DNA from: Saururus chinensis
Lineage: Eukaryota > Streptophyta > Magnoliopsida > Piperales > Saururaceae
Assembly (NCBI GenBank): GCA_035235625.1
Contig: CP141141.1
Coordinates: 12,645,968 to 12,709,967, forward strand
DNA length: 64,000 nucleotides
Reading direction: 5' to 3'
The notes below the pieces were generated by a model. That model had not been told where the DNA came from. It made no database searches and was given only the letters and a program-made list of their open reading frames with translations. Shown here piece after piece: positions 15,824-64,000 of this stretch. The position numbers and the translations under genes are program-made. Position 1 is the stretch's first letter. Every line of letters starts with the position of its first letter.

Positions 15824-17897
15824 TTAGGCAATTGTAAACTCATGATCCTTCTCCAGAATTTCCAAGGCCTTGGGATCCAGGCTAATCTCCACATCCACAC
15901 TCTTTCCCCCATCCTTGCCGGGGTACAAGAACACCATCCCATCAAACTTGTTGTTGCTGCCACTCCTCACTCTCTCCGGCTGGCCCCAACCGAAGTCCAC
16001 TTCGTAGACCCGGAATCTTGGCGAGCTCCCCACGGCCACGCAGTTGAGCCCGGCATCCTTGTATTGGTACAACTTGGGTGCTGCTTCCCACTCCTCCGAC
16101 CGGCGGGTGATTGCCTTTGCATCATGGGAATCAATTACTTGTTGGACGAGGTTGGCCCCAAACTCCGGCGGGTGGGCCAGCAGCATCCCGGTGGCCGTCC
16201 CCGTGAACACTGCCTGAATGAGGTTGCCGAAGTAGTTGTCCGGCATCGGCGGCTCCACCCGCTTCCGGCAGTCCATGAAGACGGTGAACACCGTAATATC
16301 CTCGGGCTTAAGGCCCCGGGCACGGGTGACGGCCCGCCAGAGGTGGACCCCTAGTGACTGGAATGCTGAAAAGGGCTTGCACCCTTCCGGCCTGCTGGCG
16401 TTAGCAGCTGCTTTGATTTTGTGCATTGCCTCCTCGGAGAACCGGAAGACCCTCTGTGGGAGGAGCGGCTCCGGCGGGACCTCCACCACCTCGCCGTTGA
16501 CGGCGGAAGCGGGGAGGTCCAACTTCAAACGTATGGCACGTGCTTGGGTCCGGTCGTGGAACGGAACCATGGAGATGGAGTGGCTGCCTCGGCAGAGCTC
16601 GGCCCAGGCACTCATGAAGTGCCATGTTGAATAGCCGTCCAGGATCACATGGTTGAATGCACACCCAACAGCCAATCCGTCCTTCAGCTTCGTGAACTGT
16701 TTCAATCAGCAAGAATGCAATTAGCTCATCCAAAACTCAAAGAAAGTGTGGGGACCAGCATCCAGTTGTACTTCAAAAGGATTTTGGGATCCACTGCAAA
16801 ACGGTCGGATTGACATGGGATAAATCTCCCTGTGCCAAACCTTCCATTGGTACTTGGTGCAGCAATAGAAAATTAAGTGGGTCCCATTGAACATTCTTAC
16901 CATGTCCAAAAGTGCCTAGACAGCGGGCCCCAGTTCAGAGGTTACTTGTAAGTTGTAATGCAAAGTCGAGCATGTGGAGAAAGAGCCTTGGTTAAGGAAC
17001 TTCCTTCAGTTTACACGAAGTAAAAGGACATGGCAATAGGCAACATTGCAAGATGTATTCGACTGATTCACAAGAGCAAGTAACATTTGACAATCACATG
17101 ACACAGAGGAAGTGGGACCTCGATTTAGATACATAGCCACATTTCAATTGGAGCAATGCCGTATCAACATTCGCCATACATATACACTATGTTAGCCATG
17201 TATTTCACCGCTTACCAAACTTGATAGGTTGTTTGGGTAAGTGTTAAATTACACTACCAATATAGTGTACTACAGACCCCAATGCTGACATGCAGACACC
17301 GGCTTTTGCAGGCCAAGAGCAATCCAAGATGAAATTAAACAGTTAAATTGGGAAGAATATGAAATCTCACTCCCCCCACACAGGAGGATATCTTTGATGC
17401 GTATTGGAAAAGTAGTAGTAAAAATAAGAACAAGGAGGAGTGACCTGCACAGAGAGAAGTGGCCGGTGGAACCCTTCAAGATTGAGCACTCCGGTGAAGG
17501 GAACAATTTCCTGCAGTATGTTGGACACTTTGTCCTGCGACAGCTCCTCCACACCAACCCCTTCTGCTACGGCCTCAATGACTTCCACTCCGGCGCCGTT
17601 GTCGCCGCACTTCTCCACCCGGAGCACCCCCTCATCATCCATCCCAAGTCTGCCAGACAGGGGGTAGAAGTGCTCCAACACAGCCCCCAGCCCCTCCTTC
17701 AGCTTCGCCACTCTTCCCTCAAAGTCATCCCCCTTGTAGAGCAACACCTTCTGATTGTAATAGAAAGTCACATAGGGCAAATCAAATGTGACCAATGGGC
17801 ACTCTTGTTTCGCCACAGTTTTGCTAGGGAAAACCTTGGTTTTGCTCACCACCTTCACCAATCCGACCTCCTCCTCCTTCCCATTCTCTATGGCCAT
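15824..17897 (-). CDS. DCR: BAHD acyltransferase, DCR-like (two exons)
   Basis: Complete gene: exon 1 is 17897-17445 (151 codons) and exon 2 is 16696-15824 (290 codons plus stop), together 441 residues, normal for BAHD enzymes. The intron (17444-16697, 748 bp) starts GTCACT and ends AACAG, in phase 0 after ...HRPLLSVQ. The catalytic motif HxxxD is HVILD (residues 167-171) and the structural motif DFGWG is at residues 385-389. The adjoining stretches STWHFMSAWAELCRG, YFGNLIQAVFTGTA and NCVAVGSSPRFRVYEVDFG resemble Arabidopsis DCR (DEFECTIVE IN CUTICULAR RIDGES), which acts in the cytosol and is needed for incorporating hydroxy-fatty acids into cutin. Like other BAHD enzymes it should transfer acyl groups from CoA thioesters. 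Start: first ATG of MAIENG with no upstream in-frame candidate. I see no lesions, so it should be functional. Orthology to DCR rather than a close paralogue is inferred. Confidence 0.9.
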
Positions 17898-22988: not shown

Positions 22989-23816
22989 TGATCGTTTATA
23001 ATTTAACCATTTGCAAGTGTACAAGGTAATTGTACTAGGATAAGTATTTAAGGGTTGTCAAACTTTAGGGATTGATGAATTATTACTAAATCTAAGGGAG
23101 GAATTTGTTTATTAGTAACTAAAACAACTTAAACTTTAATTAAGTAAAGGAAGTAATCACTAAATTAAAAGGAAGAGATCAACATAATGAAAATTACCTA
23201 GGAAATCGAATCCACTATATAATTATAACGATCTCTTAATATTTAATTTAAATCTAGTCTAAATATGAACAAGTATTCTCAACTACAAGTTACAATTACT
23301 TCAAAAAGAATCATTAATCAAATCCATAGCATGAACTATCTTTGACAATAGCACGAATCAACTATAGTAAAGTAAACTAAACTATAAGTATGACTCGTCA
23401 AATCTTAGTATAACTCATCCAATTCATTAATTATATGAACATTAAAACAATTGCATGGTCATCTCATCTAAATCACAGAAATTAGAATCAATATAAATAT
23501 CAAAACAACATCAATCTATCATCTACAAGACAATAAATCAACATAGATTTGAATAAACATGAAAAATTCTTCCATTAAAAAGAAAATTTTTATCATACAA
23601 TTGTCATTATTCACAACTAATATCTAAATTAAAAATAAAAAAAATTCATTTTATAAGAAAGCTCTTGAATCTCCATTGAAAGCTTTGAATTATCTTCCAT
23701 CTTCTCTTTAGAAAATCTACCCAAAAACCTTCAATTTCAAGAAAAATATGTCTTTATATAAACATAGGAATCATAGGAGGAAGTCTAACATGAAACTCAA
23801 AATTGGATAAAAATAG
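22989..23816 (-). mobile_element. Athila-like solo LTR, left segment
   Basis: Starts TGATCGTTTATAATTT and is collinear with the LTR at 50767-51933 over its whole length. It breaks at 23816, exactly at the AATAG target site of the Tat element, and resumes at 46147. The left flanking bases ATATG (22984-22988) match ATATT (46435-46439) after the other end, a 4/5 target duplication. No gag or pol is attached, so it is a solo LTR of about 1.1 kb. Confidence 0.65.
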
Positions 23817-25215
23817 TGTTGGTGGATTTCGGTAGTTCTCTATGCACAAGACAAGGAAATGGATCGGATGATCCTCCTTGCAAGGGATAGAGAAGAACCT
23901 TTTTTTTTTACGTGGGACGACCTTCTCTTGATTAATCAAGACTACTCTTTATACTTTGAAGTGAGTAGTAGTGATTAATCAATTTTCAAAACCCTTCAAT
24001 TAGTTGGCAAAAATGAAAGAAACAACTGAAATTTTATTAAAATAAGAAAAGAGAATTGCCAGGAGAAGTGGCTACAACTTTCAAGTTAAAAAAAATAAAA
24101 GAAAATAAGAAAATAAGGAAAATTCTTCTTGAAGATGAGAGCTCCCCTTGCACAAATTCTTCTTCCTTCTTGGTTGCTTCTGCTTGTCTTCCGATTCCTC
24201 GATCTTCTTCGACTTTTTGAAGGTCAAGGCTTTTTAGGAATTTGGTGTATGATGGACTTCTGGATTTCTCTTTGGAGGTTCCCTAGACTTGAATGCCAAA
24301 AGCCCCTTCTTATGGAAATGAAGGGGTATTTATAGGATGAGAGTTGCATGGTTAAGCAAAGTAATGTGGTGAGTTAGAAAGGTAGTTTATGAGAAGTAGA
24401 GAATGGATTAATGGGAGTGTTGGTGAGAACCACTTGATTAATGGAGGAAGTAGGAAGTGTGAAAGAAGACCGGGCATTATACCTTTGACTTGGTCATCTC
24501 CACTTTTTTTTATTATTATATTTTTTTTATTTTATCATCCTTTTTTTTATAGTAGGGGATCACGAGCATCAAGGCTTTGATTTAATCTTCTCATTCCTTA
24601 TGTGGGGCCCATGAAATTTTCCACACAACTTCTTTTTAAAAAAAAAAAAACTAAATAATAGTGTAGGACCCACGAGTCTTACCTAGCCTCTTTCATTTAT
24701 TTCTGTTTTATGACTATTTTGTTGTGAGACTTATGAGGTCCTACATAGTCCTTTACAAATTTTTATTATGTGGCCATGTGAGGCTTACAAAGCTTCCCTC
24801 AGTGTTTAACTTTGAATGTAAAGAGGCCCCCATAATGTCCTCTCACAATAAATTTTTTGTTGGAAGCCTTAGTCCATTCCTACATGTGTAGGATTTAGAT
24901 CTTACCTCTTCACTAATTTTTTTTGTTAAAAGCCTTAGTCTATTCCTACGTGTGTAGGATTAGATTTTGCTTCCTTACTTTTTTTTTTTCTTTTTAGACT
25001 TTTTCCACTTCAAAGACTTTGTCTATTTAAAAATTTGGTCTCACTCAGAGCTAGTCAAGCTCCGAAATCTTGGCCTTTGGATTTTGATAAAATTTTTCTT
25101 TGTTTGGATTTTATCCGAATTTGAGACTTTATCCATTTTGAAAACTTAGAGTTATCTAAAACTAGTCAAGCTCCGAGATCTTTGCAATTGAATTTTGATT
25201 TTTTTTATGTCAACA
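23817..25215 (-). repeat. 3' LTR of the Tat element
   Basis: Direct copy of 44729-46141. It contains the same LTR promoter box (CCTATAAATACCCC on the minus strand, about 24336-24323). Slightly shorter than the 5' LTR because of small indels in poly-T tracts. Confidence 0.9.
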
Positions 25216-26993: not shown

Positions 26994-27018
26994 TTATTTA
27001 TTTATTTATTTATTTATT
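26910..27018. repeat. compound (TA)n / (TTTA)n microsatellite
   Basis: About 78 bp of TA repeat with one interruption, followed by about 30 bp of TTTA repeat. The Tyr/Ile-rich open frame across it is an artefact. Confidence 0.95.
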
Positions 27019-27299
27019 ATGGTTGAGGAGAGGATTGAGCCGCGATGGTCGGGGATAGAAAGCAGTGAGGGAAGAGAGTGGGCCATGGAGATGATGAGTC
27101 GGCTGCTGAACTTAAATGGGAACCGGGGAGGACAGTGTTGAAAATTAATGACTGGGACAAGGCCGAATATGACTGAGAGACGGAGCCGGCAAGACAGACC
27201 AAGGATTCGACGGTAAGGGAGGAAACATTGGAGCATATGGGGCTGGCCAGAGGCGGAGAGAATGGTGCAGTTTGGTGGTGGAAAATCGTGGTGATAGGG

Positions 27300-27720
27300 C
27301 GGGCGGTAGGGAAGGAATAGCAGTGGCCGATTCCTTGCTTCCCGATTTGTCAATTTTCTTAAGAAGTAGCATGTTAGGGAGAATGCCCCCATGGGGGATG
27401 GTCACACCACTCAAAAGCCTCCCAAGCTCCTCATCGTTCCAAATCGCTAGAAGCACATGCATAAGGATGATCCGATTCTTCTTGTTATCCCGGGCAGCAT
27501 TTCCAGCCAACTCGAGCACCTCACCAGCCGAATACTTCAGAATCAGCGGCAAGGTAGACAGGGGCGTCGGTGCCTACACGCTGGGTGCTGCGGCCTCTCT
27601 TCATATAGCGGCCAATCCTTCCGACGGGGAACTGCAGGCCTGGGACACCGGCTTCTTCTTCGGGCGGCCAAGCTTCCGGCCAGAAGCTCCTTTCTTCACC
27701 CTGGTTCCAACGGCGTCCAT
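27300..27720 (-). pseudogene. histone H2A pseudogene
   Basis: On the minus strand an ATG at 27720 opens [18 protein letters not shown], a plant H2A N-terminus. A frameshift leads to [20 protein letters not shown], then a second shift to [21 protein letters not shown] and [12 protein letters not shown], covering nearly the whole histone fold with recognisable H2A order. At least two frameshifts and several substitutions at normally invariant sites (for example RHxxLAVRNDEEL has become [13 protein letters not shown]) show it is dead. Downstream there is no clear H2A tail or poly-A tract. It lies inside the Tat element, in the same strand sense as gag-pol, with a GC-rich block upstream. Whether it arrived by retroposition or by capture of genomic DNA cannot be settled here. 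Confidence 0.85.
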
Positions 27721-28690
27721 CGTCTTGTGTTTGGGCTTGGAGGGAAAGAGCGACAAGAGCAAGATGGCCTAAAACACAACGTTTTTTTTTTTACCACAGA
27801 TAACATGAAATTGAAAAGCCAAAATGTTTGTTGCTCCGATTGATTTGAATTTGTCTTCTGCGCAATGTAAAGTAGGAGATTTTTTCTGTCTAAATGGAAA
27901 AATGGGGAAATTTCGGGGGAGAAGATATGCTGAGGAAGGGAATGGGAAGGTGGTGCAGCAGAGGTGATCGGAGAGGAAGAGGAGCGCGGCGGCGCGAGGG
28001 AGAATGTGGTGGAAGAATATCGAGACTGAGGGTGAGGGTGGTGGATTGGAAGAAAGGGAAGGCAGAAAGTGGGAGAGGCGATGGCGGCCGATGGAGAAAA
28101 GGGTTGATGGTCGAAGGAGAGGGAAAAGGGGCGGTGACTGGTCATTGTGAGGCGCAGCGGAGGAAGAAGAGATGGCGATCTGGCGAGAGGGGCGGAAGCG
28201 GCTGGGTGAGGTCCGGCAGCGAGTAGAGGTAACTGGAGAAGAACAGCAACGATGGAGTCACGGCAGTGCGAGGGAAGACCATCGGCCGGTGGCGGTCGGG
28301 AGAATGGTGGAATGGGAACTGGACCGGGAAGAGGAGAAGGGGCAGTTGGAGGTGATCGGAAAGGAATTGGATGGAGGAAGGAGAGGAAGGGGTGTTAGGG
28401 ATTTGAGGTCAACGGCCATGATTTGTCCATGGCGATCAATGGCTGTGATAATTATTTTTTTTTATGAATTGTCCTGATTTAGTCAGGAAAATTAATGGCT
28501 GCAATTCGATTTGTTTTTTTTGTTTTAAATGCGGCTTGCCATAAGGTTGTGCTCAAGTTTGGCTTAGCTTGGCTTACGTAGAGCCGCCACCTCTTTTCTT
28601 TTTTTTTTTTTAATGAAGTTAATTTTTTTTATTTATTTATTTTGCAGATTGAAGACTACGTTGGGATTGGAGCAAGTCTTCTTCTTTTTG
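27721..28690. other. GC- and purine-rich block upstream of the H2A pseudogene
   Basis: 27890-28420 is strikingly G/A-rich on the plus strand, unlike its AT-rich surroundings. It could be captured promoter/5' UTR sequence travelling with the H2A pseudogene (pyrimidine-rich leader on the minus strand) or other captured genic DNA. No conserved protein recognised. Confidence 0.35.
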
Positions 28691-28800: not shown

Positions 28801-28914
28801 TAACTTTATAACTTATATAACGACGTATAAAAATTTGTTGCAATTCTAATTCTCTTTCTAAGAAGATTGAGAATCTCAATAATTTTATGTCATTTTGCAA
28901 GTTTTATTACGTTT

Positions 28915-30610
28915 CTTTCCTAGGGGATTGAGCACTTTAGGTCTGCACTCTTTGATTTTGATTAATTAATTCTTTTTTTTTAGAAATTTGTCAAAAGGGA
29001 TGTAGTCTAATTATGTCTCCTTCGGGATTGAAAACTTTAGACTTGCTTACTTTTAATTGATTTTATTTTTTATATTATTTTTTAAAAGAAAGATGCAAGT
29101 CTCATTATGTCTCTTTTTGAGGGGGATTGAGAACTTTAGGCTTGCTTTCTTTGATTTTGATTTATTGATGATTTTTTTTGTTGAAATTTGTCAAAAGGGA
29201 TGCAGTCTAATAATGTCTCCTTCGGGATTGAGAATTTTAGACTTACTTACTTTTGATGATTTTTGTTATCATTTTTTTTTTAAAAAAAAGAGAAATGCAA
29301 GTCTCATTATGTCTCTTTCTGAGGGGATTGAGAACTTTAGGCTTGCTCTCTTTGATTTTGATTGATTTTTTTTGTTGAAATTTGTCAAAAGGGATGCAGT
29401 TTAATTATGTCTCCTTCGGGATTGAGAACTTTAGACTTGCTTACTTTTGATGATTTTTTTTATGTTTTTTCAAAAGAGAGATGCAAGTCTCATTATGTCT
29501 CTTTCTAAGGGGATTGAGAACTTTAGGCTTGCTCTATTTGATTTTGATTGATTAATTTTTTTTTTAAATTTGTCAAAAAGGATGCAGTCTAATTATGTCT
29601 CATTCGGGATTGAAAACTTTAGACTTGCTTACTTTTGATAATTTTTTTTATCGTTTTTCAAAAGAGAGATGCAAGTCTCATTATGTCTCTTTCTAAGGGG
29701 ATTGAGAACTTTAGGCTTGCTCTCTTTGATTTTTGATTGATTAATTTTTTTTTGTTGAAATTTATTAAAAGAAATGTAGTCTAATTATGTCTCCTTCAGG
29801 ATTGAGAACTTTAGACTTGTTTACTTTTGATGATTTTTTTTAATCATTTTTCAAAAGAGAGATGCAAGTCTCATTATGTCTCTTTCTAAGGGGATTGAGA
29901 ACTTTAGGCTTACTCTCTTTGATTTTTGATTGATTGATTTTTTTTGTTGGAATTTATCAAAAGGGATGCAGTCTAATAATGTCTCCTTTGGGATTGAGAA
30001 CTTTAGAGTTGCTTACTTTTGATAAATTTTTTTTATCATTTTTAAAAAGAGAGATGCAAGTCTCATTATGTCTCTTTCTAAGGGGATTGAGAACTTTAGG
30101 CTTACTCTCTTTGATTTTTGATTGATTGATTTTTTTTGTTGAAATTTATCAAAAGGGATGCAGTGTAATAATGTTTCCTTTGGGATTGAGAACTTTAGAC
30201 TTGCTTACTTTTGATGATTTTTTTTAATCATTTTTCAAAAGAGAGATGCAAGTCTCATTATGTCTCTTTCTGAGGGGATTGAGAACTTTGGGCTTGCTCT
30301 CTTTGATTTTTGAATTATTGATTTTTTTTGTTGAAATTTATCAAAAGAGATGCAGTCTAATTATGTCTCCTTCAGGATTGAGAACTTTAGACTTGCTTAC
30401 TTTTGATAATTTTTTTTATCGTTTTTCAAAAGAAAGATGCAAGTCTCATTATGTCTCTTTTTGAGGGGATTGAGAACTTTAGGCTTACTCTCTTTGATTT
30501 TTGATTGATTGATTTTTTTTGTTGAAATTTATCAAAAGGGATGCAGTCTAATTATGTCTCCTTCGGGATTAAGAACTTTAGACTTGCTTACTTTTGATGA
30601 TTTTTTTTAA
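28915..30610. repeat. tandem array of about 188-bp units (about 9 copies)
   Basis: The landmark GATGCAAGTCTCATTATGTC recurs at about 29092, 29295, 29480, 29668, 29860, 30053, 30246 and 30438, a period of about 185-203 bp. Each unit is itself a degenerate dimer: GGGATTGAGAACTTTAG occurs twice per unit, once with GGCTTGCTCTCTTTGATT and once with ACTTGCTTACTTTTGAT. The array lies between the PMD pseudogene and the 3' LTR. Tat/Ogre elements are known to carry variable tandem repeats in this 3' region that can seed satellite DNA. The small open frames within it are repeat artefacts. Confidence 0.9.
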
Positions 30611-30714
30611 TTTTATTTGATGATTTTTTTTTATTTTTGTTTTTTTTTTTACTAACTTCTCTCTCTCTCTCTTTTTAGGTTTATTTTTCTCTTCTGAAAG
30701 ACTCCTCTCCCAGA

Positions 30715-32954
30715 ATGGCTTCTTCTTCTCATGCAAGTGTCCAAAGCCAAGAAAAAGAGACGTCAAGCGGTTCAAGGTTCCCAGTTTTTCGTTTGGACGG
30801 ACAAATCATCTCTAGAACCATAAAAGATTTAGGCGCTGATAACCACCACAAGCGGACTTCTATTTTAAAGAAAATGGTTCCTGATCTTGAAAGAACTCTA
30901 ATAACTAATAGAGAGTGGATATTTCCAAAACCTGCCTACATATGTGGAGATGGCGGCGAAGGCGGTTTCTTTTCTTACGGATTTCCACGAAAGCAAATCG
31001 GTATTTTTAGATATATGGGGAACTTATTTTCCACCAACATGTCTTTTGATCGTGATCTATCCATTAGATCTTATAATTTTGTAGTTTATTCCAAAGGTTC
31101 CCTTCAAAAGGAATTCCGTCAAAGGAGTTATTTTTAGAACGCTCTTCAGAATTGACTCACCGTTCTAGTGGTGTCAAATTTGTGGTATTTACAAAAGGGG
31201 GTAGAGATTTCAACAAGCGAGGATATGGAGGCATTGAACGTCGAGTTTTATATCCAAGTACCCTTACATCTTCAAATAATAGAGAAGAGAACGTTCAGTT
31301 GGAAACACTTTTGACTCAATCCATGGTGAAAGGGTCTTCATATAATGACTTCGACCACATAAGCGGATGGGCCTATGACTCAAAGCGTTGGTCTATTCTC
31401 ACTGGGAAAATTGTAGGTTCATATGCATCCAGATTGGAGAGAAGTGGTTTGTTGGAAGCAGTATTGGCCACACAGAGAGGAATAACATTGAATAAGCAAA
31501 TTTATATTGCTATGTTGGAGTCTTTTTGTCCTGCAACCAATACTTGTCTTTCTCCAAACGGTGAGTATGGGTTTTCTTTAAGTGAGATGACACATATCTC
31601 AGCTCTTCCAGGCTTTGGGGAGATTTATGAAGAGTATATTCCCTGCAATGAAGAATTAGAGTTGATTCGAGAAGCAGAGCTTGACTTATACATGATTGTA
31701 GCTGAACTGTTTCTTCACTTTACCATTATTGCAAAAGAGAAACCATTTCATGCCAAAGGTGTTCTCATTCAACAGTGGACAAGCCAATTCTTTAACATTA
31801 TTGAATTTAGCCAAACACAGGCCGAGATTGAGAGTAGTGAGAAATCATTGAGATATAAGACTCGGACTCCTCTTACCAAGGCAGATATTGAAGCATAGGT
31901 AAGAAAAGATTCCATTAGCTTGGAAGATTTACTAGTGCCTGAAAGTGAAGAACCAGGGCTTCTAGCATTACGAGTTGATGGTCATGCCATGCTCAGAGAA
32001 ACTTTTCTTGCTGCATACCTTGTTGCATGGCTTTGCCGTTGTATATTTCTGAGCAAGAATCCTCAACTACTCGATCCTTCATTATTCTTAGTTGCAGCCC
32101 GCATGGCATTGGGCACACGTTTCCCCTTTGCCCTGCCATGGTGGCTCGATTATGCACTGGTTTACGTGATCATGTAAAGCATCTTGGTTCGGAGAAGTAC
32201 AAATTGAAGGCTTATCCTGCCCATTTCTTCTACAGCTGGTATGTCATGCATTGTCCCTCTCTACACCCTCCACCTGCTCCTCCAGCTCATAGGGGTGAAG
32301 CCTTCTTGGGGAGATTAGCAGTATGTTCTTTTAAAAACTTATCTTTGAAAGAAGCACGAGAGAAAATCCGTTTTCATGGAAACTGGCATCTTGGAAGTCT
32401 CCCACATTTTAATGATGAAGGAATGATGACAGACGATTCTTCCCTTGCTGGTGTAAAAAAAATGGATGATGCTGCATTTATCTGGCATATTAACATCCGC
32501 CCAAGTACTTTAGTTTACCGAAGTGTACTTCAAGTAGAACTTGAACCGTACACTCCAAGCAGATTTGCTGTACAATTTGGATATTCTCAAGGTATGGTGG
32601 GAAATCCTAACCTTCAATGGAAACGACATGGAGAAATTTGTGATGCTGCTTGTGCTTGGTATCACTTCATAAAATGTGATACTGAAACAAAATTCATTTA
32701 TCCCGATGAAAGCACCGTTTACACTGAATGTTTTGCTAATTGGTGGGTAAGGGCAGCTGAGAACTACCTAAATGCAAATATATCAAAGGCACCTTCATTC
32801 CGCTCTGTCATTGTTGATTCAAACAAAAGGCCACTTTCACCTAAATCAGATGATCTTGGTAAGGGAACCAGGATAAAGTCAAAAGCCCTTCGTCTTCGGA
32901 AGAAGAAGAAAAGTGATCAAATTACTATTCAAGGTTTAAATATCTTGGCTTTTT

Positions 32955-33008
<54 letters not shown>

Positions 33009-34508
33009 TCATTGTTCTCCTTGTATGTAGAAGTTTCATCTTTCTCTTGTCACGCAAGTGATGTGGATTCCCAAAGCTTGGTGAACTTTGTGGATGAAAT
33101 TGATGACGATATAAATACAAAAGACATTATTACTTTTGAAGGTATGCTAAACACACATCATCTTCTCTCTTTTTCTTTTTTTTTTAACGAAAAGAAAACT
33201 TATTTTCCTTTCTCCCTCTTTTTTTTTAGGTACCCTTGATAATTTGGGTTCATCAAGAATTCAAGAACGGACTCATGAACCTAATGAGACTGAAGTTGTC
33301 CCTTCTTTATCAAGTATATATATATTTTTTAAAAGGTTGCATAGCTCACTCTTTTCATTTTGTTTTTAGGTCACATACGTAGAAACTCAAGGGAAGTGAA
33401 TCCAATAGAGTCTCAAGGGTTAAACCTAATACCTGAAACCTCAAGTGGTATAAACCAAACAAAAGCCCAAGGCATGACAACCAGAGTTGAGATTAACCAA
33501 GAATTGGGGTTTGCTCGGTTTGCTCAGGTATATCTTCTGGTTCTTCTTTTTAATTCCATTTCTTCTTCTTCTTTTTTAATTTGTGTGAATTTTGACTTGT
33601 AGGTTCCCACCACACGTACTTCAACATCCTTAGAAACAGGTATTTCATCCAGGGTGGAAAGAATTGAGGCCTTAAAAGATATTTCAGCAGCTAACAGTTT
33701 GAGTTCTAACTCTTCTTCAAGTAAAAATTCTTCTTATAGTGAAGGCCTAACCTTGAGCAAAGGTGCTTCAAATCAACATGTCAATGTGACTTCTTCCACC
33801 CATGAACAAAATGATGCAGAAAATGTATGTGTTCAAACAATGATTGTATCTTCTCTCCTTAGAACATTTAAAGAGACACTGGAGATTCTGATTAAGATGA
33901 CCCTAACCATGATAGCCGTAAGAAAAGCTGAATTAGAAAGCTTATTAAGCCTTCTAGATTATCAAGAAATTGACACAAGTCCTTATCGTTCTGCATTGGA
34001 TAAGATAATCACAATTTCCAATGAAATAAAGAGAGCATGTGGACCAAATCTCATATCTATGAAATTGGAGGAGAAGAGAAAGGTAGAGTCTCAATTGTTA
34101 AATGAGCTTGAAAAACTTAAATCAGAGGGTAAAGATATTGAAGTACAATCTTCTTTGAAACATGCCTATCTCAATAAACTCATGGATTCTCAAATTTCTC
34201 TAAAGCAAGCACATACTGAGGTGAAGTGTCAAATAGAGGCTTTTCTTAAAAAGAAGGAAGAACTTGAGAACTAGATTCATGGGGTTTCAGCGGAACAATC
34301 AATTGTTGAGGTGGAGCTTAGATATTCATCCCTTAGGCTTAAATAATTGAATGCAAAGATCAGTGTCAAAGCTGGGGAAGTAAGCAAGCTGTATCAAGAA
34401 ATTGAAGACATGGAGCGATCCTTTTCTTCTAGTGAAGAAGCAAGAATAGCTACGAAGCATAGAGCAACACAAGCTATGGATGAAGTTTTTAATAGCCTCC
34501 AATTTTAG
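30715..34508 (+). pseudogene. plant mobile domain (PMD) pseudogene, five exons, antisense in the Tat element
   Basis: Five exons can be read: 30715-32933, 33031-33141, 33230-33313, 33370-33527 and 33603-34508. All four introns have GT-AG ends, and the phases (1,1,1,0) join correctly. The first exon encodes an aminotransferase-like plant mobile domain: GLLEAVLATQRGITLNKQ, SLSEMTHISALPGFGEIYEE, then PAMVARLCTGL and AHFFYSWYVMHCP, with the PMD C-terminal part up to about 32800. After a basic stretch (RLRKKKK) the later exons give a Ser-rich linker and a coiled-coil C-terminus (KLEEKRKVESQLLNELEKLK). Lesions: frameshifts near 31125 and 32130, TAG at 31896-31898, TAG at 34272-34274 and TAA at 34344-34346. 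A TA microsatellite fills intron 1. The gene is antisense to gag-pol, which explains how its introns could survive retrotransposition. PMD proteins of the MAIN/MAIL type act in silencing and genome stability; PMDs are also known in transposons. Confidence 0.85.
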
Positions 34509-34890: not shown

Positions 34891-35660
34891 CTAGGCTTGT
34901 AGCCTTTTTTCGTCACGAGTTTCTAGTTCTTGTAGGCGTAGCTTGATATTCTTATCATTTGTTAATTGATTTGCCAAAGCCACTCTCAATGATGGAATTT
35001 GAATTTCTAAGGGTAAAACCGCTTCACATCCATAAAAAAGGGAGAAAGGTGTCGCTTGGGTTGCATTTCGAACTGTGGTGCGATAAGCCCACAATACTTC
35101 TAGCAACTTTTCATGCCAATCCCTTTTTTTCTTTGAAATGACTTTCTTTAAGAGTTTACATATAGTCTTGTTGAAAGCTTCAGCAAGCCCATTGGCGGCA
35201 GGATTGTATGTTGTTGAGGCTACACTCTCAATGCCATACTTTGCACAGAATTGATAAAATTTATAGTTTGCAAATTGAGGTCCATTGTCATGCACAAACC
35301 TTCTCGGGACTCCAAACCTATAAATAATATGAGTCTTCAAGAATTTTAATACATCTTTCGTTTTTGTTTCACGAAGTGCTATAGCTTCTGCCCATTTTGA
35401 AAAATAGTCAGTGACCGTGATTATAAACCTATGACCTTTAGATGAACTAGGGGTAATTGGACCTATAATATCCATTCCCCACGTTTCAAAAGGCCAAGAA
35501 GTTGTTGTAGGGTGCAAGAATTCAGGTGCTTGGTGTATAAAGTTTGCATGATATTGGCATGCTTGACATTTCTTAGCATATTCCATACAATCTTTTATCA
35601 TGGTAGGCCAATAATATCCCAACCTTTTTATTCTATCTTGCAATTTTGGACTAGGCTGGT
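34891..35660 (-). pseudogene. Tat element integrase
   Basis: A long open segment encodes zinc-binding CQAC, the core WGMDIIGP, VHDNGPQF and NGLAEAFNK. The catalytic residues are Asp at about 35472, Asp at 35289 and Glu at 35181, with exactly 35 residues between the second Asp and Glu, the canonical D,D(35)E arrangement. The core alone looks intact. The upstream join to RNase H is broken by stops, so the polyprotein is not continuous. In life this enzyme would insert the cDNA with the 5-bp duplication seen around the element. Confidence 0.9.
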
Positions 35661-35688
35661 GAGCTCCACAAACGCCATCATGGGTTTC

Positions 35689-36393
35689 TTAGATCACTTT
35701 TTGGGCTTCTTTTTGTGACAAACACCTTCGTAAAATCCCATCATAAGACTTTCGATACAACATTTTCATTTTTGCATCATAATAAAACCTTGGGGTTCGC
35801 CGTCTTATGCTTGCGGCCTTTGATGGGTCTTGGGGTAAGATGTCATGTAAGGCAAAATCAATCAGAGGGGAACGCCAATCATCAGACTCAAAGTCAAATG
35901 AAATTTGCTCTATGCTGTTACATTCACTTAGTAGTTCAAATTCACTGGGTAGTAATCTTTTCTCACATATAGAAATCCCAATATTTTGTCCTTCTAATAT
36001 TGTCATAGACGTGGCTAGTGCTACAAGAGCATCTGCTTTAGCATTCTTTGACCTCACTATGTGTTGTATGTCAAAATCATCAAATAATTTTGCTAATTTC
36101 TTAGCCATTGAGTGATAAGGTAAAAGCTCATATTTTCTTACTTCAAAAACCCCTTTCATCTAATTGATGACTAATTGGGAATCCCCAAAGGCTAAGAGAG
36201 ATTTTATTTGTAATTCATGTGGCAATTGCATTCCAATAATTAGAGCCATGTATTCAGCCATGTTGTTGGAGCATGGTTGTGTTAGCACAAAAGCATGTGG
36301 TATCATGTGTTTTTCTGGTGTGATAAAGATAATATCCACTCCCGATACACTTTGTCCTTGATCATTTGTTCTTGATGCACCATCAAAGTACAT
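35689..36393 (-). pseudogene. second, archaeal-type RNase H and integrase N-terminal region
   Basis: MYFDGASRTNDQG, NNMAEYMALIIGMQ and FGDSQLVIN are the signature blocks of the archaeal-type RNase H found between RNase H and integrase in Tat-lineage elements. The domain continues as YELLPYHSMAKKLAKLF and NAKADALVALAT after an in-frame TAG at 36160-36162. The downstream part leads toward the integrase zinc-binding region. This extra domain is the main evidence for Tat lineage. Confidence 0.85.
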
Positions 36394-36531
36394 CTGTCAT
36401 ATTCTTTCTTGAACTTTTGTGGGGCTTGCAAAGAAGACAGCTTCATTAGGTAAATCTTCTTGTAACTTTGAACCTTCTTTCAAAGGATGCTCAGCAAGAA
36501 AATCTGCTAATACTTGACCTTTTATTACTTT

Positions 36532-36830
36532 TTATGGAATATAAACTAGATCATAGGGTGACAATAAAAGTGACCATTTTGCCAATCGAGAATTAAGAGA
36601 TCCTGCCTTCGTCATTAAAATTTTGAGTGGATTGACTCGAGATACCACGAATGTCGTCTGACCCAACAAATAGTGTCTTAGCTTCTCAACTGCAAACATG
36701 AGTGCTAGACATTCTTTTTCAATAGGGGGATATCTATGCTCAGCCCCTACCACCATTTGACTCAAGTAATATAGAGTTTGTTCGCGACCTTCATCATTTT
36801 TCTGTGCAAGCATTGCTCTAAGTGAATGAT
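36532..36830 (-). pseudogene. Ty3-type RNase H
   Basis: The segment encodes TLYYLSQMVVGAEHRYPPIE and KECLALMFAVEKLRHYLLG, the core of gypsy RNase H that follows RT. It ends at a stop after DLVYIP. The N-terminal catalytic part lies beyond a frameshift near 36815-36890. Confidence 0.8.
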
Positions 36831-36891
36831 CAAGAGCTTTTGTATATAGGATGAAGGGTCGACCTTGGATTGGTGCCGATAAAACCGGTGG

Positions 36892-37707
36892 CTAGGTGAG
36901 ATAATGTTTGATCTCGTTGAAGGCATTATCACATGCTTTGTCCCAGACAAAGTTTGCTCCTTTCTTCATCAACCGAGAGAATAGTTGACATCTTCCAGAT
37001 AAGTTTGAAATAAATCTTCTTATATAAGCTAATCTCCCTTGCAGCCCTTTTAACTCTCGCAAGTTTCTTGGTGGCCTCATTTCTATTATTGCTTTTGTTT
37101 TTGCAGGATCCACCATGATTCCATCTTTAGTTACAATAAATCCTAAAAATTTACCAGAAGACACTCCTAGAAAGCATTTGAGAGGATTCATCCTCATTTG
37201 GTGTTTTCTTAAAATTTCAAAGATCATACGAAGGTCTGCTATGTGATCACTTGCATGTTTGCTTTTGACAGCAAGATCATCAACATAACACTCCACTCTT
37301 TTATGTAAATGTTATTTAAATATTTTTGTCATAGCTCTTTGATATGTTGCTCCAGCATTCTTTAAGCCAAATGGCATAACAGTGTAACAATAAATACCAA
37401 AAGGAGTCCTGAATGTTGTATGTTTTTCATCTTTAGGGTTTATTTTTATTTGATTGTACCCAGAATATCCATCCATAAATGACATACAGTCATAACCAGT
37501 TGTGTTATCAACTAAGATTTCTGTGATTGGTAAGGGGAATTCATCTTTTGGACATGCATCATTTAAGTCTCTAAAATCGATGCACACACGAATTTTTCCA
37601 TTCTTTTTCATAACTGGTACAACATTGGCAAGCCAATCAGGGTGTTGCTCTTCCCTAATGAAACCAACTTCCTTTAGCTTTTGAACTTCTTTTTCAATTT
37701 CCTGCAT
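36892..37707 (-). pseudogene. Tat element reverse transcriptase
   Basis: Two open segments, 37707-37312 and 37296-36892, separated by a stop. The first has KIRVCIDFRDLNDACPKDEF, SFMDGYSGYNQI and MPFGLKNAGATYQRAM. The second opens with the catalytic YVDD (37287-37276), then SGKFLGFIVTKDGI and LKGLQGRLAYIRRFISNL. These are the standard RT fingers, palm and thumb motifs of plant Ty3/gypsy elements. The stop just before YVDD disables a single product. Confidence 0.9.
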
Positions 37708-37717
37708 TATTGAAGGT

Positions 37718-38913
37718 TTAAACCTCAGACCTAATGTTCAAATGATAAACAGCAATTTTCGGACTTAGTCCTAGCATTTCAGTATAATTCCAAGCAAACA
37801 CATCTTTAAATTCCTTAAGCAGACTTATCAAAAATTCTGCCTCGTTCGTAGTAAGACTAGTGCTAAGGAAGATAGGCAATGGGTGTTCTTCTGTACCCAA
37901 ATTTACTTCTCTTACCTCATCTTGTGTAGGAGGAAGAATTTTTACTTCTTCTTCAATTTCATATTCTTGGAATTCTTCAACATCACTAGCTTTGTTATTT
38001 TCATCATTATCAGTCTCATTATTTTTATGGTATTCTATTGAGACCATATTTACAGACTTTGTGTCAAGGTTGGATATTTCAAGTGATTCAAAGAAATCAC
38101 AAGTATCCACATCTGAGTCCCAACATGAAGTTTTATATGATTCATTGTCACTTTCATTCCGTTGAGATAAGTTAATAAAGTCTGGTTTAAATCCCAGGCC
38201 ATGTAAAGAGGATTTTTTTCGTTTTGACATTATAGATGGTTGTAATGGGGTTTTTCTCCCACACCATTATTGAGACGACCCGGAGAATCAAAGTTGTAGC
38301 CCATATTTTTCATAATGTCTTTTAAAATTGAACTATAGTTTTCTAATTCAACTTCATCTTTTTCTGAGTCTGATTCCTCTTTTGAAAATTGATCAATAGT
38401 GGAAGTTAGGTGAAATATGATTTCCTTTGAACTATCATTTTTTGGTACAAGGAAAGTAGATCCCTCAGGATTTTCTATATATGAAAAGGCATGTAAACGA
38501 GTCAAAGGCAACTCAAAACAAGTGGCCAATTCTAAAAAATCATCATTTTTCAAAGTTTTAAACAGTTGATCTTCAAACATTTTTGTTTCAAAAGAAGATG
38601 CAATATATCTCAAAAATAAATTTTTATTCATGCATACACGAGATACATCATCTTTAGAAGCGGTTTTCTTTACATCATTTACAACGTATTTGCAATACGG
38701 CTTTTCATTTACATGTACAATGTACTTTCCTTTAGCATTCGCAAACCGTGCATTGATTCCTTGTGGATCTATTGTTGTTGAGCCTTCAAATTCTTCAATT
38801 TCATTATCTTCATACATTGCAGAGTCAGCAAAATAGGCTTCAACACCTTTGAACGATTTTTTGTCAGCAAAGACTCGATGAATTTTTCCATCATCTCCAA
38901 TATACTTAAGCAT
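37718..38913 (-). pseudogene. linker region between protease and RT
   Basis: Two minus-strand open segments (38913-38230 and 38230-37718) with acidic composition connect protease and RT. The second ends FAWNYTEMLGLSPKIAVYHL, the conserved lead-in to gypsy RT. In Ogre elements an intron lies between protease and RT; a spliced boundary somewhere here is possible but I could not fix one. Confidence 0.6.
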
Positions 38914-39266
38914 TGGTGAGGGGTTGAGGGGATTACTAAGTTTTCATGTATCCAAGTTCGACCTAACAAAAGGCTGTAGGAAGTTTGGTTACTGATTACA
39001 TAGCATGTCACTTCAAACTTTAAAGTTCCAATTCGACATTTTAGGCGGATCTTTCCTTTAGCTTTTTGTGAATTTGCATCATATCCTTCAATACTTGTCA
39101 TTGTAGGAGTAAGCTTCTTCATAGGGATCCCTAAGTATTCCAAGGTACGAACTGGGAGAATATTGATTCCAGAGCCTAGGTCTATTTGAATTTGACGCAG
39201 TTCCACGTGACCAATATACCCTGTATGATACAATGGCCTTGTATGTTTCATGTCTCCAAGTAGCAT
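38769..39266 (-). pseudogene. Tat element aspartic protease
   Basis: The segment encodes IDLGSGINILP (retropepsin-like active site, with DLGSG in place of the usual D-S/T-G), then GTLKFEVTCYVI and SYSLLLGRTWIHE, the flap and second conserved loop typical of plant gypsy proteases. Confidence 0.8.
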
Positions 39267-40844
39267 ATCATCCTTGGAGAATGTGATTGCTGTTTGAAGA
39301 TTTTCAAGTTTAACTTCATGACACTTTTCACATATTTCTTTCTCCCCTTTGATTTTAACACGGTTGACATGAGGTGCATATTTTCAGCTTCCATTAACAC
39401 ATTGACAACTGTCTTCCTAATCTCTGGAAACAATCGAAGCAAGTCATACATAGTCAACCGGGCAGGCACATTTGCTAGTTAAGCGATCAAGTCATAATTT
39501 AGAGGCTTACTTATATCTGGAAGAGGTGAATTTCTTTTAACTGGCTCTTAAAACCGAACAACTTTTTGTTGTTCTGTTTTTTCTTTTTCCTTCCAATAGT
39601 CAGAATAATCTTTGTGATAATCTCGCCCTGACCTTGTTCCAGGATTTGATTCTTCAGTGTTGTGGATTTGCTCCATGCTTCCCTCAGAATCAGATGCAGA
39701 ATCATCATAAATTTCACGAACAACTTCTTCATTTGCTAACTTGGTCATGTTACAAAAGTCTTTAATCAAGCATCCTCTTTAATTGTTGGAGCAAACTTAT
39801 AATGAAGAGAAATCATGTTACACATGAATGTCTTCTCATTGTCTTCGTCTTTTTCCTTCAAAGGAGCGATCATTGATTCATCATCACTTCCCCATCCACT
39901 AGGAATAATTTTTTTATCACTTGCCCATGGAGAGACTTTGGGGAGTCTTATCTTGTACCTTTTTCGTCCCATATGCTTAACCTAATGTTCTTCGTAATCT
40001 TTTGAAATTTGAGGTTGAACATTAGGCACTTGATTTGAGTGTTTGAGGTCATGACTTAGTTTCTAGAATATTTAATGTGAGACTTAGCCCCTCTAGACCT
40101 CGATCTAGTATTTCTTCTTGATAACGAATCTTTTCCCATAAAAGAAGTCACCCTGGGAGGCTGAGGCAAGCGAGAGGGTTTCTTTGTTACCATGTCTAGA
40201 GTTTTGGCTTTCAAGCACTTTTTTTCTTCTTTCGGTGAGATTTCTAAATTCTTTTTTGAAGATAACCCAATCCAAGAAGGGCAAAAACTTATTTTCATTT
40301 CTTGAAAGTCTCTTGTCATAGACTCTATTTGGTTAGATAACTCAACTAAGTCCACTTCTAGCTTTGAGTCTTTGACTGAAACCATATGGCACTCATGAAT
40401 TATTTCTTCATCCTCTTCATCTTCTTCAATTAGGACAATTATCTCATCATTCTCTTGGTTTACAAGAGATTGAGTTAGAGGGTTGCCTTCTTTTGATTGT
40501 GGCAGTCCCTCAATGCTTTCTACTTCTCGTTTAATCTTTTTTCTTTGTGGGTCGTCCTCTGTTTCTTCCCAAGAGTTATCTATTTTGATTTTTGTGTCTT
40601 TGTTCTCCCAAATGATAGCTCTTTCTTCATCTTCTGGCCATGCTCTCCATCCATTAGGTAAAAGTTTCTCATTTTGGTTTTCAAACACCAGCCAAGGTTT
40701 ATCTGCTTTAATTTCTGTGTCTGTGTTCTCCCAAAGGATGGTTCTCTCTTCATCTTCTGGCCAAGCCCTCCATCTATTTGGTAGGAAGTGTTCTCCATAT
40801 TCAAAAGTTGACCATGGTTCATTGTTGTTTATTTCAATAATCAA
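39248..40844 (-). pseudogene. gag-protease spacer, broken reading frames
   Basis: Several overlapping short minus-strand segments with acidic, low-complexity composition. At 40600-40844 a tandem protein repeat is visible: PNRWRAWPEDEERTILWENT and PNGWRAWPEDEERAIIWENK, about 38 residues apart, with a further decayed copy (GWGSDDE) near 39890. Frameshifts and stops are frequent. No enzyme domain identified. Confidence 0.6.
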
Positions 40845-41810: not shown

Positions 41811-42725
41811 CTAAGTGGGCTTAACATACTCTTTCTTATCACCACATTTTTCAGCTTCACATTCAAACACTAAATGTTCTGCCTCAATAGCACTTTTCAT
41901 GAGATCGTTAAAAGTCTCTGGCTTTATAGATCCCATCTTTGATTGAATCTTTACACGAAGATTTAAACGACATACTTCGGTAAGGTTCTTTTGAGTTGTT
42001 CCATCTGGACACTTTAATGCAAGAGCCCTCCACCTTTTTATGAAGTTACATACTGTCTCTTTTGGCCTTTGCTTTGTTGAATAAAGTTGGGCCATAGAAG
42101 TGGCAGCTTCTTCATCAAAGAAATGACTCAAAAATTTAGCTTCCAAGTCTGCCCATGTTTGTACCGATTCTTCTGGCAAAGTCATATACCAGTCAAATGC
42201 AGTTCCCTTCAAAGTGCTGATAAATAATCTAATAAGTACAGCATCATTGCCAACAAGGTTCCCAGTTAAAGCCTTGAAGTGGCAAAGATGTTGTTTTGGA
42301 GAAGCTTGACCATTATAGGTTTGCAAGTTTGGCTGCTTGAATTTGGGTGGGAAAGGTATTTTATCCATCCAAGCTGGGTAAGGGGAATTTACTCCCACTT
42401 TTCTCAACTTAGACTCTTCTTGGATGTGTTGAAGAGCTTCTTGCATCTCTTTTCTTGATACAAGTGCTTGAGGACTTTCCCTATTCATTCCTTCATTTTC
42501 TTGAGAATTAACTTCATGGAAGTCACCTTGATGATTAGAAGTGACTTGTTGTTGACTTTGAGTTCTTGTGGCTAATGCTCCAATCATGGCTTTCAATTCT
42601 TCTATTTGCTTCTCTTGATCTGCCATAAATTTAATAAAATGAGTAGGGACTTGCCCTATCTCTATGTCATCTTTTTCTCCTGTTGCCATGTGTACTCCAA
42701 CTCTTCTAGATTCCAAAGAAGACAA
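41811..42725 (-). pseudogene. Tat element gag (capsid)
   Basis: About 300 codons with the retrotransposon gag domain: PFPPKFKQPNLQTYNGQASP, GTAFDWYMTLPEESVQTW, LEAKFLSHFF and NFIKRWRALALKCPD, in the usual order. This open segment is one of the better preserved parts of the element. It would form the virus-like particle in the cytoplasm. Confidence 0.85.
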
Positions 42726-43049
42726 AGTTACGGGATGGTGTTGGAGGAAGTAGAACTATCCTCCACTTGAACCTCCTCTTCGCCATCGTCTTCTTCTCCA
42801 TGAGTGATTGAAAGGAATTTATTTGTTGCAAAAATAAATTTAAATAAATTTAGGAAACCCTGATGAAGTCCCTGCACCCCCATCTTTCAAAGAATTTTTC
42901 TTTTTGCTTCTTGTGTAGTATTGAGTTGTTTTCATAGTTTGCTCTTCTTCACTTTTTGAGCCAACCATATTTACAATTGCAACATGAGGCTCCTTCTCCT
43001 TAGGCCTCCACCTTTAGGTTGTTTTCAAGGTTTTGGGAGAACTTGAGCT

Positions 43050-44728: not shown

Positions 44729-46141
44729 TGTTGGTGGATTTTGGTAGTTCTCTATGCACAAGACAAGGGAATGGATCGGATGATCCTCCTTGCAAGGGAT
44801 AGAGAAGAACCTTTTTTTTTTACGTGGGACGACCTTCTCTTGATTAATCAAAACTACTCTTTATACTTTGAAGCGAGTAGTAGTGATTAATCAATTTTTA
44901 AAACCCTTCGATTAGTTGGCAAAAATGAAAGAAACAACTGGAATTTTATTAAAATAAGAAAAGAGAATTACCAGGAGAAGTGGCTACAACTTTCAAGTTA
45001 AAAAAAATAAAAGAAAAGAAGAAAACAAGGAAAATTCTTCTTGAAGATGAGAGCTCCCCTTGCACAAATTCTTCTTCCTTCTTGGTTGCTTCTGCTTGTC
45101 TTCCGATTCTTCGATCTTCTTCGACTTTTTGAAGGTCAAGGCTTTTTAGGAATTTGGTGTATGATGGACTTCTGGATTTCTCTTTGGAGGTTCCCTAGAC
45201 TTGAAAGCCAAAAGCCCCTTCTTATGAAAATGAAGGGGTATTTATAGGATGAGAGTTGCATGGTTAAGCAAAGTAGTGTGGTGAGTTAGAAAGGTAGTTT
45301 ATGAGAAGTAGAGAATGGATTAATGGGAGTGTTGGTGAGAACCACTTGATTAATGGAGGAAGTAGGAAGTGTGAGAGAAGACCGGGCATTATACCTTTGA
45401 CTTGGTCATCTCCACTTTTTTTTTTTATTATTATATTTTTTTATTTTATCATCCTTTTTTTTATAGTAGGGGATCACGAGCATCAAGGCTTTGATTTAAT
45501 CTTCCCATTCCTTATGTAGGGCCCATGAAATTTTCCACACAACTTCTTTTTTAAAAAAAATAAAAATAAACAATAGTGTAGGACCCACGAGTCTTACCTA
45601 GCCTCTTTCATTTATTTCTGTTTTATGACTATTTTGTTGTGAGACTTATGAGGTCCCACATAGTCCTTTACAAATAGGAAATTACGTGGCCATGTGAGGC
45701 TTACAAAGCCTCCCTCAGCCGTTTAACTTTGAATGGAAAGAGGCCCCCATAATGTCCTCTCACAATAAATTTTTTGTTGGAAGCCTTAGTCCATTCCTAC
45801 GTGTGTAAGATTTAGATCTTGCCTCTTCACTAAATTTTTTGTTAAAAGCCTTAGTCTATTTCTACATGTGTAGGATTAGATTTTGCTTCCTTACTTTTTT
45901 TTTCTTTTTAGACTTTTTCCACTTCAGAGACTTTGTCTATTTAAAAATTTGGTCTCACTCAGAGCTAGTCAAGCTCCGAAATCTTGGCCTTTGGATTTTG
46001 ATAAAAAAAAATTTTGTTTGGACTTTATCCGAATTTGAGACTTTGTCCATTTTGAAAACTTAGAGTTATTTGAAGCTAGTCAAGCTCCGAGATCTTTGCA
46101 ATTGAATTTTGATTTAATTTTGATTTTTTTTTATGTCAACA
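44729..46141 (-). repeat. 5' LTR of the Tat element
   Basis: 1413 bp, TGTTGG...CAACA in plus-strand terms, pairing with 23817-25215. On the minus strand a strong TATA box CCTATAAATACCCC lies at about 45249-45236 and an AATAAA at 44950-44945, placing U3, R and U5 in a plausible order. Confidence 0.9.
45236..45249 (-). promoter_or_regulatory. TATA box of the Tat 5' LTR
   Basis: CCTATAAATACCCC on the minus strand is a near-ideal plant TATA box; transcription would start about 30 bp downstream (near 45210) and run toward gag. Confidence 0.65.
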
Positions 46142-46146
46142 AATAG

Positions 46147-63433: not shown

Positions 63434-64000
63434 ATGGATCATGCAAAGCCTTGTTACGGGCCAGGCCCGAGTGATGCTTCTTTACTCGTAGAGCAGGAGT
63501 CACATAGGTCTGTTGCTATTTGGAGAGGAGAGGTATGATAACTTTTTTTAAAATTTGTTTTATTTTTTTGGTTGATATAGTACGACATGTTATAATTTTA
63601 AAATTTATTATAGGACCCCGGGTGCCTTGAGTGCACCGAACATTTTAAATATCTCCGCCATTGGCCTATAGATGAGCGTATATTACCTTATATCGAGCAA
63701 GCGGGATTTGGCCATTTCATTCATCTACAGTATGTTCGTCTCGATCGGCCTCTATTGACAGCTCTTGTTGAGAGATGGAGGAGGGAGACACAGACGTTTC
63801 ATTTGTCATATGGAGAGATGTCCATCACGCTCATGGATGTGGCAGTTCTATTAGGACTCCATATTGATGGACGTCCGGTGACAGGCACGACAGGAGGAGC
63901 TCATATGGATATATTAGTTAGACTTCTTGGTAGAGCTCCTCCTACAGTGATGCGTGGTAGCCGAGTGAGCCTACGATGGCTCTTACAGGAGTTTCGTGAG
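63434..64000 (+). CDS. plant mobile domain (MAIN-like) protein, 5' part
   Basis: Exon 1 is 63434-63532 (33 codons, MDHAKPCYGPGPSDASLL...) and exon 2 starts at 63614. The intron is GTATGA...TTATAG, phase 0, and exon 2 is open to the window end (129 codons). The sequence carries SHRSVAIWRGE, LPYIEQAGFGHFIHL, ALVERWRRETQTFHLSYGE and ITLMDVAVLLGLHIDGRPVTG: the N-terminal half of a PMD protein of the MAIN-like group (often annotated as serine/threonine phosphatase 7 long-form homologue, after proteins where PMD is fused to a phosphatase). It begins 97 bp after the MULE stop. An acceptor AG at 63427-63428 suggests it may be joined to upstream exons, although direct splicing from GGTAAA at the end of the MULE frame would create a stop. 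No lesion in the visible part. MAIN-like proteins act in the nucleus in transposon silencing. Confidence 0.8.

Follow-up and report, generated by a model that had tools for sequence, protein, structure and literature searches.

An antisense PMD gene with predicted introns in a Tat (Ogre/Retand)-type retrotransposon family of Saururus chinensis

Structure and conservation of the antisense PMD gene

The window analysed here is a 64,000-nt stretch of Saururus chinensis contig CP141141.1, and positions count along that stretch unless a contig (C) is given. It holds a complete long terminal repeat (LTR) retrotransposon of 22,325 bp, which carries a gene related to the plant mobile domain (PMD) family (PF10536) at 30715-34508 on the + strand. 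The gene lies between the integrase and the 3′ LTR and is antisense to gag-pol, as an initial annotation of the stretch had claimed; that placement was borne out by the element's domains, which matched on the minus strand. The element is flanked by the 5-bp target duplication AATAG (23812-23816 and 46142-46146), and its domains follow the order gag, protease, reverse transcriptase, RNase H, second RNase H and integrase. Based on the LTR pair, the duplication, the position of the integrase after reverse transcriptase and RNase H, and the PF13456 match (36163-36396) between RNase H and integrase, its domain sequences identify it as a Tat (Ogre/Retand)-type element, within which it is likened to Ogre by description. 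A second RNase H in this position is the placement reported for Ogre and Retand elements (PMC6317226).

The PF10536 profile matched in three + strand pieces that follow profile order (1-57, 105-150 and 272-346; E-values 0.0016, 0.056 and 0.001), and the first 140 codons match nothing. The gene model contains five exons and four GT-AG introns in phases 1, 1, 1 and 0. The T content of the introns is 49-59% versus 21-34% for the exons, exon 1 being measured from 32144 onward. Among 1000 dinucleotide shuffles of 32934-33602, none produced an open GT-AG chain spanning 353 nt of exon or more when the acceptor had to contain at least 7 pyrimidines in 12, and 2 did so when at least 6 were enough; the real sequence was held to the same acceptor rule each time. 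With introns below 60 nt disallowed the real chain fails as well, since intron C measures 56 nt. A codon model trained on the other coding sequence of the window ranked the claimed frame first on the + strand for 8 of 9 exon pieces; in exon 4 it was outscored by 0.2 by a frame containing six stops. All + strand scores of the four introns were negative.

Exon 1 ends in a basic run, RLRKKKK. The coiled-coil tail of the initial annotation agrees with a predicted structure of exon 5 (33603-34271), which is mostly helix at a mean predicted local distance difference test (pLDDT) score of 61. HECT and DUF matches of the helical tail fell below the cut-off and were taken as chance. A sequence search of the PDB with the piece 32144-32932 gave chance-level matches and no PMD relative. 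Upstream of the gene, the stretch 30640-30678 resembles the 3′ splice site of a leader intron: it contains TACTAAC, a run of pyrimidines and an AG placed 37 nt ahead of the PMD start codon, and 24 of 30 copies retain this AG.

The decisive test of the intron structure was its conservation across other copies. For this, the window copy was aligned with the next 29 copies by score (L010-L038; n = 30). The GT-AG borders are kept in 27 copies at each of introns A, B and C and in 22 at intron D, in keeping with the five exons and four introns first annotated. At intron D six more copies are gap-ambiguous: five have a GT beyond a gap of 9 nt, and L031 has GGTTATAT. A 9-nt gap at the end of exon 4 is seen in six copies. 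Homology is lost past intron A in L016 and L034, and these two were dropped from the length, gap, substitution and variant comparisons, leaving 28 copies. All 28 share an exon 2 of 111 nt and an exon 3 of 84 nt, whereas the introns vary; intron C, for example, measures 69-81 nt in L012 and L025-L028. The commonest length of exon 1 is 2221 nt (7 of 30 copies). Across 378 pairs, gaps per 100 nt amounted to 0.31 in exons 2-4 versus 3.55 in introns B-D, and exon identity exceeded intron identity in 324 pairs (means 0.899 and 0.874).

The copies fall into two subfamilies, A (16 copies) and B (12 copies), giving 192 A-versus-B pairs per region. The ratio of nonsynonymous to synonymous substitution rates (dN/dS), a check proposed in the initial annotation, averaged 0.222 for exon 1 and 0.407 for exon 5 in these pairs. 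Nonsynonymous and synonymous variants numbered 72 and 87 among those shared by at least two copies and 134 and 39 among singletons (odds ratio 4.15, p = 1.5e-9), and stop variants were 3 shared versus 15 singleton. The effect was seen in exon 1 (odds ratio 5.44, p = 3.7e-9) and exon 5 (7.04, p = 0.0007); in the other two sense frames, taken as controls, the odds ratios were 0.93 and 0.78. Since shared variants are poor in amino-acid changes relative to singletons, these codon patterns show the predicted gene to be under purifying selection, in exons 1 and 5, within transposing lineages, with decay after insertion.

Family copies, exchange and further modules

Searches of the window's own genome (516 Mb, 11 contigs) returned at least 109 matches to a piece of exon 1, at least 68 to the LTR and at least 145 to the integrase, some of them pieces of a single copy. 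Arrangement was examined by setting 43 of the 109 PMD matches, a set that takes in the window copy and omits small fragments, against 60 of the 145 integrase matches. An integrase lies downstream on the opposite strand in 42 of the 43, mostly at 1.8-2.4 kb and in three cases at 3.8, 6.6 and 8.6 kb; for the copy at C4:6088028 no such integrase was found among the 60. Conversely, 48 integrase copies (at least 86% identity, partial matches left out) were judged against 73 of the 109 PMD matches, and 34 have an opposite-strand PMD within 12 kb. The search for other elements with the same LTR, also proposed initially, located nine loci, window included, at which LTR pairs bracket a PMD (coordinates compared by eye). 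PMD copies at 84-97% identity occur on many contigs, and the Kimura two-parameter (K2P) distances of seven family LTR pairs are 0.011-0.037. The gene thus has the features of an aORF-3R-type gene: antisense, between pol and the 3′ LTR, present in most family copies and conserved. Beyond the host, the PMD piece and the integrase had no relatives in the viral collection (viral_contigs), and the PMD piece had no match in the prokaryotic and plasmid collections (genome_contigs, plasmids). A scan for the basic cluster across copies made out-of-frame picks in several, and its count was discarded.

The window copy of the PMD gene is broken by at least two frameshifts, at about 31116-31137 and 32144-32176 in exon 1, and by three stops, at 31896 in exon 1 and at 34272 and 34344 in exon 5. 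This breakage was omitted from the initial annotation, which proposed checking younger copies for an intact frame; some other copies are stop-free in exon 1. The two LTRs of the window element differ by a K2P of 0.0368 (3.7%), from which 2.3 stops would be expected in the PMD gene; the three seen are in line with neutral decay after insertion. The LTR gap rate would predict 8.3 indels. If a rate of 1.3e-8 per site per year is assumed, the element is presumably about 1.4 million years old. Its pol frame from reverse transcriptase to integrase contains six stops.

At least five elements (Table 1) have an integrase 89-92% identical to that of the window, yet a PMD only 53-58% identical. For one of them, L073 (C5:40656300-40661700), the values are 91% and 55%; its integrase differs from the window's at a synonymous distance (dS) of 0.69, whereas PMD synonymous sites are saturated, with a proportion of synonymous differences (pS) of 0.744 over 573 codons. 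A close integrase beside a saturated PMD is most simply explained by exchange of a 3′ cassette between element lineages, and this is read as a sign of such exchange, the codon-level basis being the single pair of L073 and the window. The layout of L073 is similar, with a long PMD exon, T-rich intron-like linker stretches and a last exon matching that of the window. Exons 2-4 had no tblastn match in L073.

Close to the 3′ LTR lies a second antisense open reading frame (ORF) of 96 amino acids, with TATAAAT about 43 bp upstream of it. The ORF is present in all four other 3′ regions fetched, whole in L070 and L072 but frameshifted in L069 and interrupted by a stop in L071. Across the window, L070, L071 and L072 (L069 left out), the mean proportions of nonsynonymous and synonymous differences (pN and pS) were 0.074 and 0.231 in frame, while the ratios in the other two frames were about 0.9 and 0.6. 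On these codon patterns it is a second selected antisense ORF. The tandem repeat that the initial annotation placed beside the PMD gene is an array of a 192-bp unit; similar arrays occur in L069, L071 and L072, three of the four regions fetched, and L070 has about one to two units.

The element also contains a decayed histone H2A, sense to gag-pol, within a GC-rich island at about 27018-28440. Against H2A chains in the PDB its C-terminal piece reached a best E-value of 2.4e-25 and its N-terminal piece one of 3.2e-9, and the best plant matches were HTA6 and rice H2A.7, which we take to be of the H2A.W type. Of 34 matches to this remnant, 20 were compared (the strongest 21 less the second piece of one locus), and 12 of these share the strand of a family integrase and lie no more than 20 kb downstream of it. 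H2A recurs in other elements, and in at least four of them no PMD lies closer than 12 kb to the integrase. A functional H2A was rejected: in five other copies read, the in-frame stretch starts just past a stop, with RVRTGAP or RVRTDAP, and has no N-terminal half, and H2A was therefore taken as a passenger. By its sequence it is a captured extra module, separate from the antisense gene. A literature search met no description of captured H2A in such elements.

Known systems and the role of the PMD gene

Neumann et al. 2019 (PMC6317226) report PMD (pfam10536) extra ORFs for 57% of Ogre elements, clades PMD-A1/A2 are described as exclusively Gypsy-borne (Ikeda et al. 2017, PMC5418596), and PMD genes in Ogre and Gypsy elements are also in print elsewhere (PMC9289625). 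The kind is therefore not new, and the initial annotation was right that PMD domains are known from transposons. With the PMD-bearing Ogre elements (PMC6317226) the window element shares its large size, the second RNase H between RNase H and integrase, the 5-bp duplication and a PMD outside gag-pol. That survey, however, used getorf with ORFs of at least 250 codons and left introns unmodelled, and its available passages hold no spliced antisense structure. With PMD-A1/A2 (PMC5418596) the shared feature is a Gypsy-borne PMD protein.

An antisense accessory gene between pol and the 3′ LTR is likewise found in Grande gene23, RIRE2 and Retand ORF4 (PMC7264820, PMC11963269); the maize Grande gene encodes a nuclear protein and has its own promoter, as told in PMC7264820. 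About half of Retand elements have tandem arrays in the same region (Vicient and Casacuberta 2020; Vicient 2025). Their antisense ORFs differ in being mostly Transposase_28 and not PMD (PMC7264820, PMC11963269), and a term search of the accessible text of PMC11963269 did not find the word "intron". MAIN/MAIL1 (genic PMD-C) and Mutator-like element (MULE)-borne PMD-C share the same Pfam domain but, unlike the PMD of the window element, are host silencing genes in the first case and fused to MULE transposases in the second; this genome also has a family of PMDs linked to MULEs. In a narrow literature search, covering the cited papers in part, no spliced and selected antisense PMD gene was met, and the gene finder of Ikeda et al. 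could show introns. Added here are the evidence for splicing and selection, the second selected antisense ORF, the sign of cassette exchange and the decayed H2A.

We consider it highly likely that the window holds a broken copy of a Tat/Ogre-type family with a true antisense accessory gene, whose product is probably a nuclear trans-acting factor for the element; from its codon and splice-site patterns the PMD gene looks like a maintained accessory gene of the family. Introns that are complementary to the transcribed strand are not spliced, and an antisense gene can keep its introns through reverse transcription. This is established biology, and the intron retention proposed in the initial annotation fits it. 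Genomic RNA from the 5′ LTR would carry the introns as their complement only, would be left alone by the spliceosome and would be copied by reverse transcription. After insertion, the opposite strand would be transcribed from its own promoter upstream of PMD, possibly within the tandem array or ahead of it. Splicing would turn the transcript into an mRNA for a PMD protein with the basic run and the helical tail. The protein would most likely work in the nucleus as a trans-acting accessory factor, at a step such as chromatin or silencing, nuclear import, integration or expression, while single copies, that of the window included, would decay. Within a single genome, the family tests whether selection maintains an accessory gene that is antisense and has introns as its element repeatedly retrotransposes, and the result agrees with the view that it is the antisense orientation which allows a retroelement to carry a spliced gene. 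Its many datable copies also open a way to study what Gypsy-borne PMD proteins, which are related to host silencing factors, do.

Several observations weigh against an accessory protein gene of this structure. The three PF10536 pieces, scored singly, reach 18.1, 13.0 and 18.8 bits, each below the 34.9-bit gathering score; an AlphaFold model of the PMD piece was discarded at a pLDDT of 32. The codon model is negative for the claimed frame in 3 of 9 exon pieces, which makes it a weak support. Exons 2-4 have an A-versus-B dN/dS of 0.985 and no effect in the singleton/shared test (odds ratio 0.50, p = 0.49), and the lack of amino-acid constraint there leaves room for another reading of the linker. 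Among the reverse frames of the all-exon control, one that shares wobble positions went in the same direction as the claimed frame (odds ratio 2.02, p = 0.0028), another in the opposite direction (0.59, p = 0.046), and the third showed nothing (0.94). The remaining 14 of the 48 integrase copies have no PMD within 12 kb, and the gene is therefore not in every copy. Splicing and the antisense promoter are predictions from DNA sequence, and the suggested nuclear action is drawn from the basic run and analogy with Grande. Overall, the interpretation in the initial annotation is partly supported.

As a special case of an accessory factor, the PMD protein might compete with or poison the host MAIN/MAIL1-PP7L silencing module and let the element escape. 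The host PMD-C proteins MAIN and MAIL1 do act in silencing (PMC5418596, PMC7156037), the element gene is under purifying selection, and such a role has been speculated in print for MULE-borne PMDs. According to the literature in the parts cited, however, Gypsy PMDs form their own clades (PMD-A), apart from the silencing clade PMD-C, and the same parts name no role for PMD-A. We regard anti-silencing as unlikely, if still the best placed of these alternatives. Less likely again is a broader proposal, in which the 3′ region would be an exchangeable antisense module of two selected genes, the 96-aa ORF at the LTR edge and a PMD-coil gene with introns. Recombination would carry this module from one pol lineage to another, and it would encode a nuclear factor shielding the element from host PMD-based silencing.

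The antisense transcript itself could be the product, for example as double-stranded RNA regulating the element, as suggested for antisense ORFs generally (PMC7264820). Selection on codons in the predicted frame, together with exon lengths that are kept while introns vary, makes this improbable, although an RNA role in parallel with the PMD protein is possible. It is more improbable still that the gene is an old, functionless hitchhiking insertion like the H2A remnant. The broken window copy, the integrase copies lacking a nearby PMD and the unconstrained exons 2-4 would suit a passenger, whereas across the exons as a whole both amino-acid changes and stops are under-represented among shared variants, and it is H2A that lacks an in-frame N-terminal half in the copies read. 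Had the window copy alone captured a host PMD gene, or received one as a nested insertion, the introns and the weak Pfam match would be accounted for. Such a one-off event, which the initial annotation had named as refuting its own reading, is excluded by the arrangement shared by 42 of 43 copies and the 84-97% identical copies on many contigs.

Remaining features of the element and neighbouring genes

Table 1. Features of the element and related loci, in window positions unless a contig is given.
Feature	Position	Strand	Evidence or remark
LTR retrotransposon, Tat (Ogre/Retand) type by domain sequence	23817-46141	-	LTR pair, TG..CA ends, 5-bp duplication
3′ LTR (element sense)	23817-25215	-	LTR pairing; at least 68 LTR matches in own genome
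Second antisense ORF, 96 aa	25294-25584	+	Starts 79 bp from 3′ LTR edge
Decayed histone H2A	27148-27790	-	PF16211, E = 2e-7
Tandem array, 192-bp unit, 8.9 copies	28896-30611		Ends about 100 bp before PMD start codon
Exon 1, PMD	30715-32933	+	PF10536 pieces; at least two frameshifts and one stop
Intron A, with TA microsatellite	32934-33030	+	GT-AG in 27/30 aligned copies
Exon 2	33031-33141	+	111 nt in 28/30 copies
Intron B	33142-33229	+	GT-AG in 27/30
Exon 3	33230-33313	+	84 nt in 28/30 copies
Intron C, 56 nt	33314-33369	+	GT-AG in 27/30
Exon 4	33370-33527	+	158 nt in 15/30 copies
Intron D	33528-33602	+	GT-AG in 22/30, 6 more gap-ambiguous
Exon 5, predicted helical tail	33603-34508	+	750 nt up to 34352 in 17/30 copies; two internal stops
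Integrase	34894-35688	-	PF00665, E = 3.2e-17; PF17921, E = 5.7e-8
Second RNase H, aRH position	35692-36396	-	PF13456, E = 1.6e-6 at 36163-36396
RNase H	36535-36891	-	PF17917, E = 5.2e-28
Reverse transcriptase, two pieces separated by stop	36895-37737	-	PF00078, E = 1.6e-15 and 3.6e-9
Aspartic protease, weak match	38772-39383	-	PF13650, E = 4.5e-4, below cut-off
gag	41814-42755	-	PF03732, E = 1.5e-13
5′ LTR	44729-46141	-	LTR pairing
Divergent-PMD elements	C2:22.79, C5:21.50, C5:40.66, C6:3.79, C8:17.93 Mb		

The second RNase H continues weakly at 35692-36159 (E = 0.0087, below the cut-off). Rfam and tRNA scans of the whole window gave no matches; the sequence adjoining the 5′ LTR may resemble the 3′ end of tRNA-Arg, the tRNA to which the primer-binding site of the Ogre subclade is complementary. 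Outside the element, an acyltransferase-type gene (PF02458), which we take to be BAHD, lies in two pieces at 15827-17897 (-). At the other side, a MULE transposase and a SWIM-domain ORF (61268-63337, +) are followed by a PMD at 63704-64000 (+) that runs off the right end of the window. Eight PMD loci were fetched as best matches; the same transposase adjoins 7 of them, and the window therefore holds two transposon-borne PMDs of different kinds.

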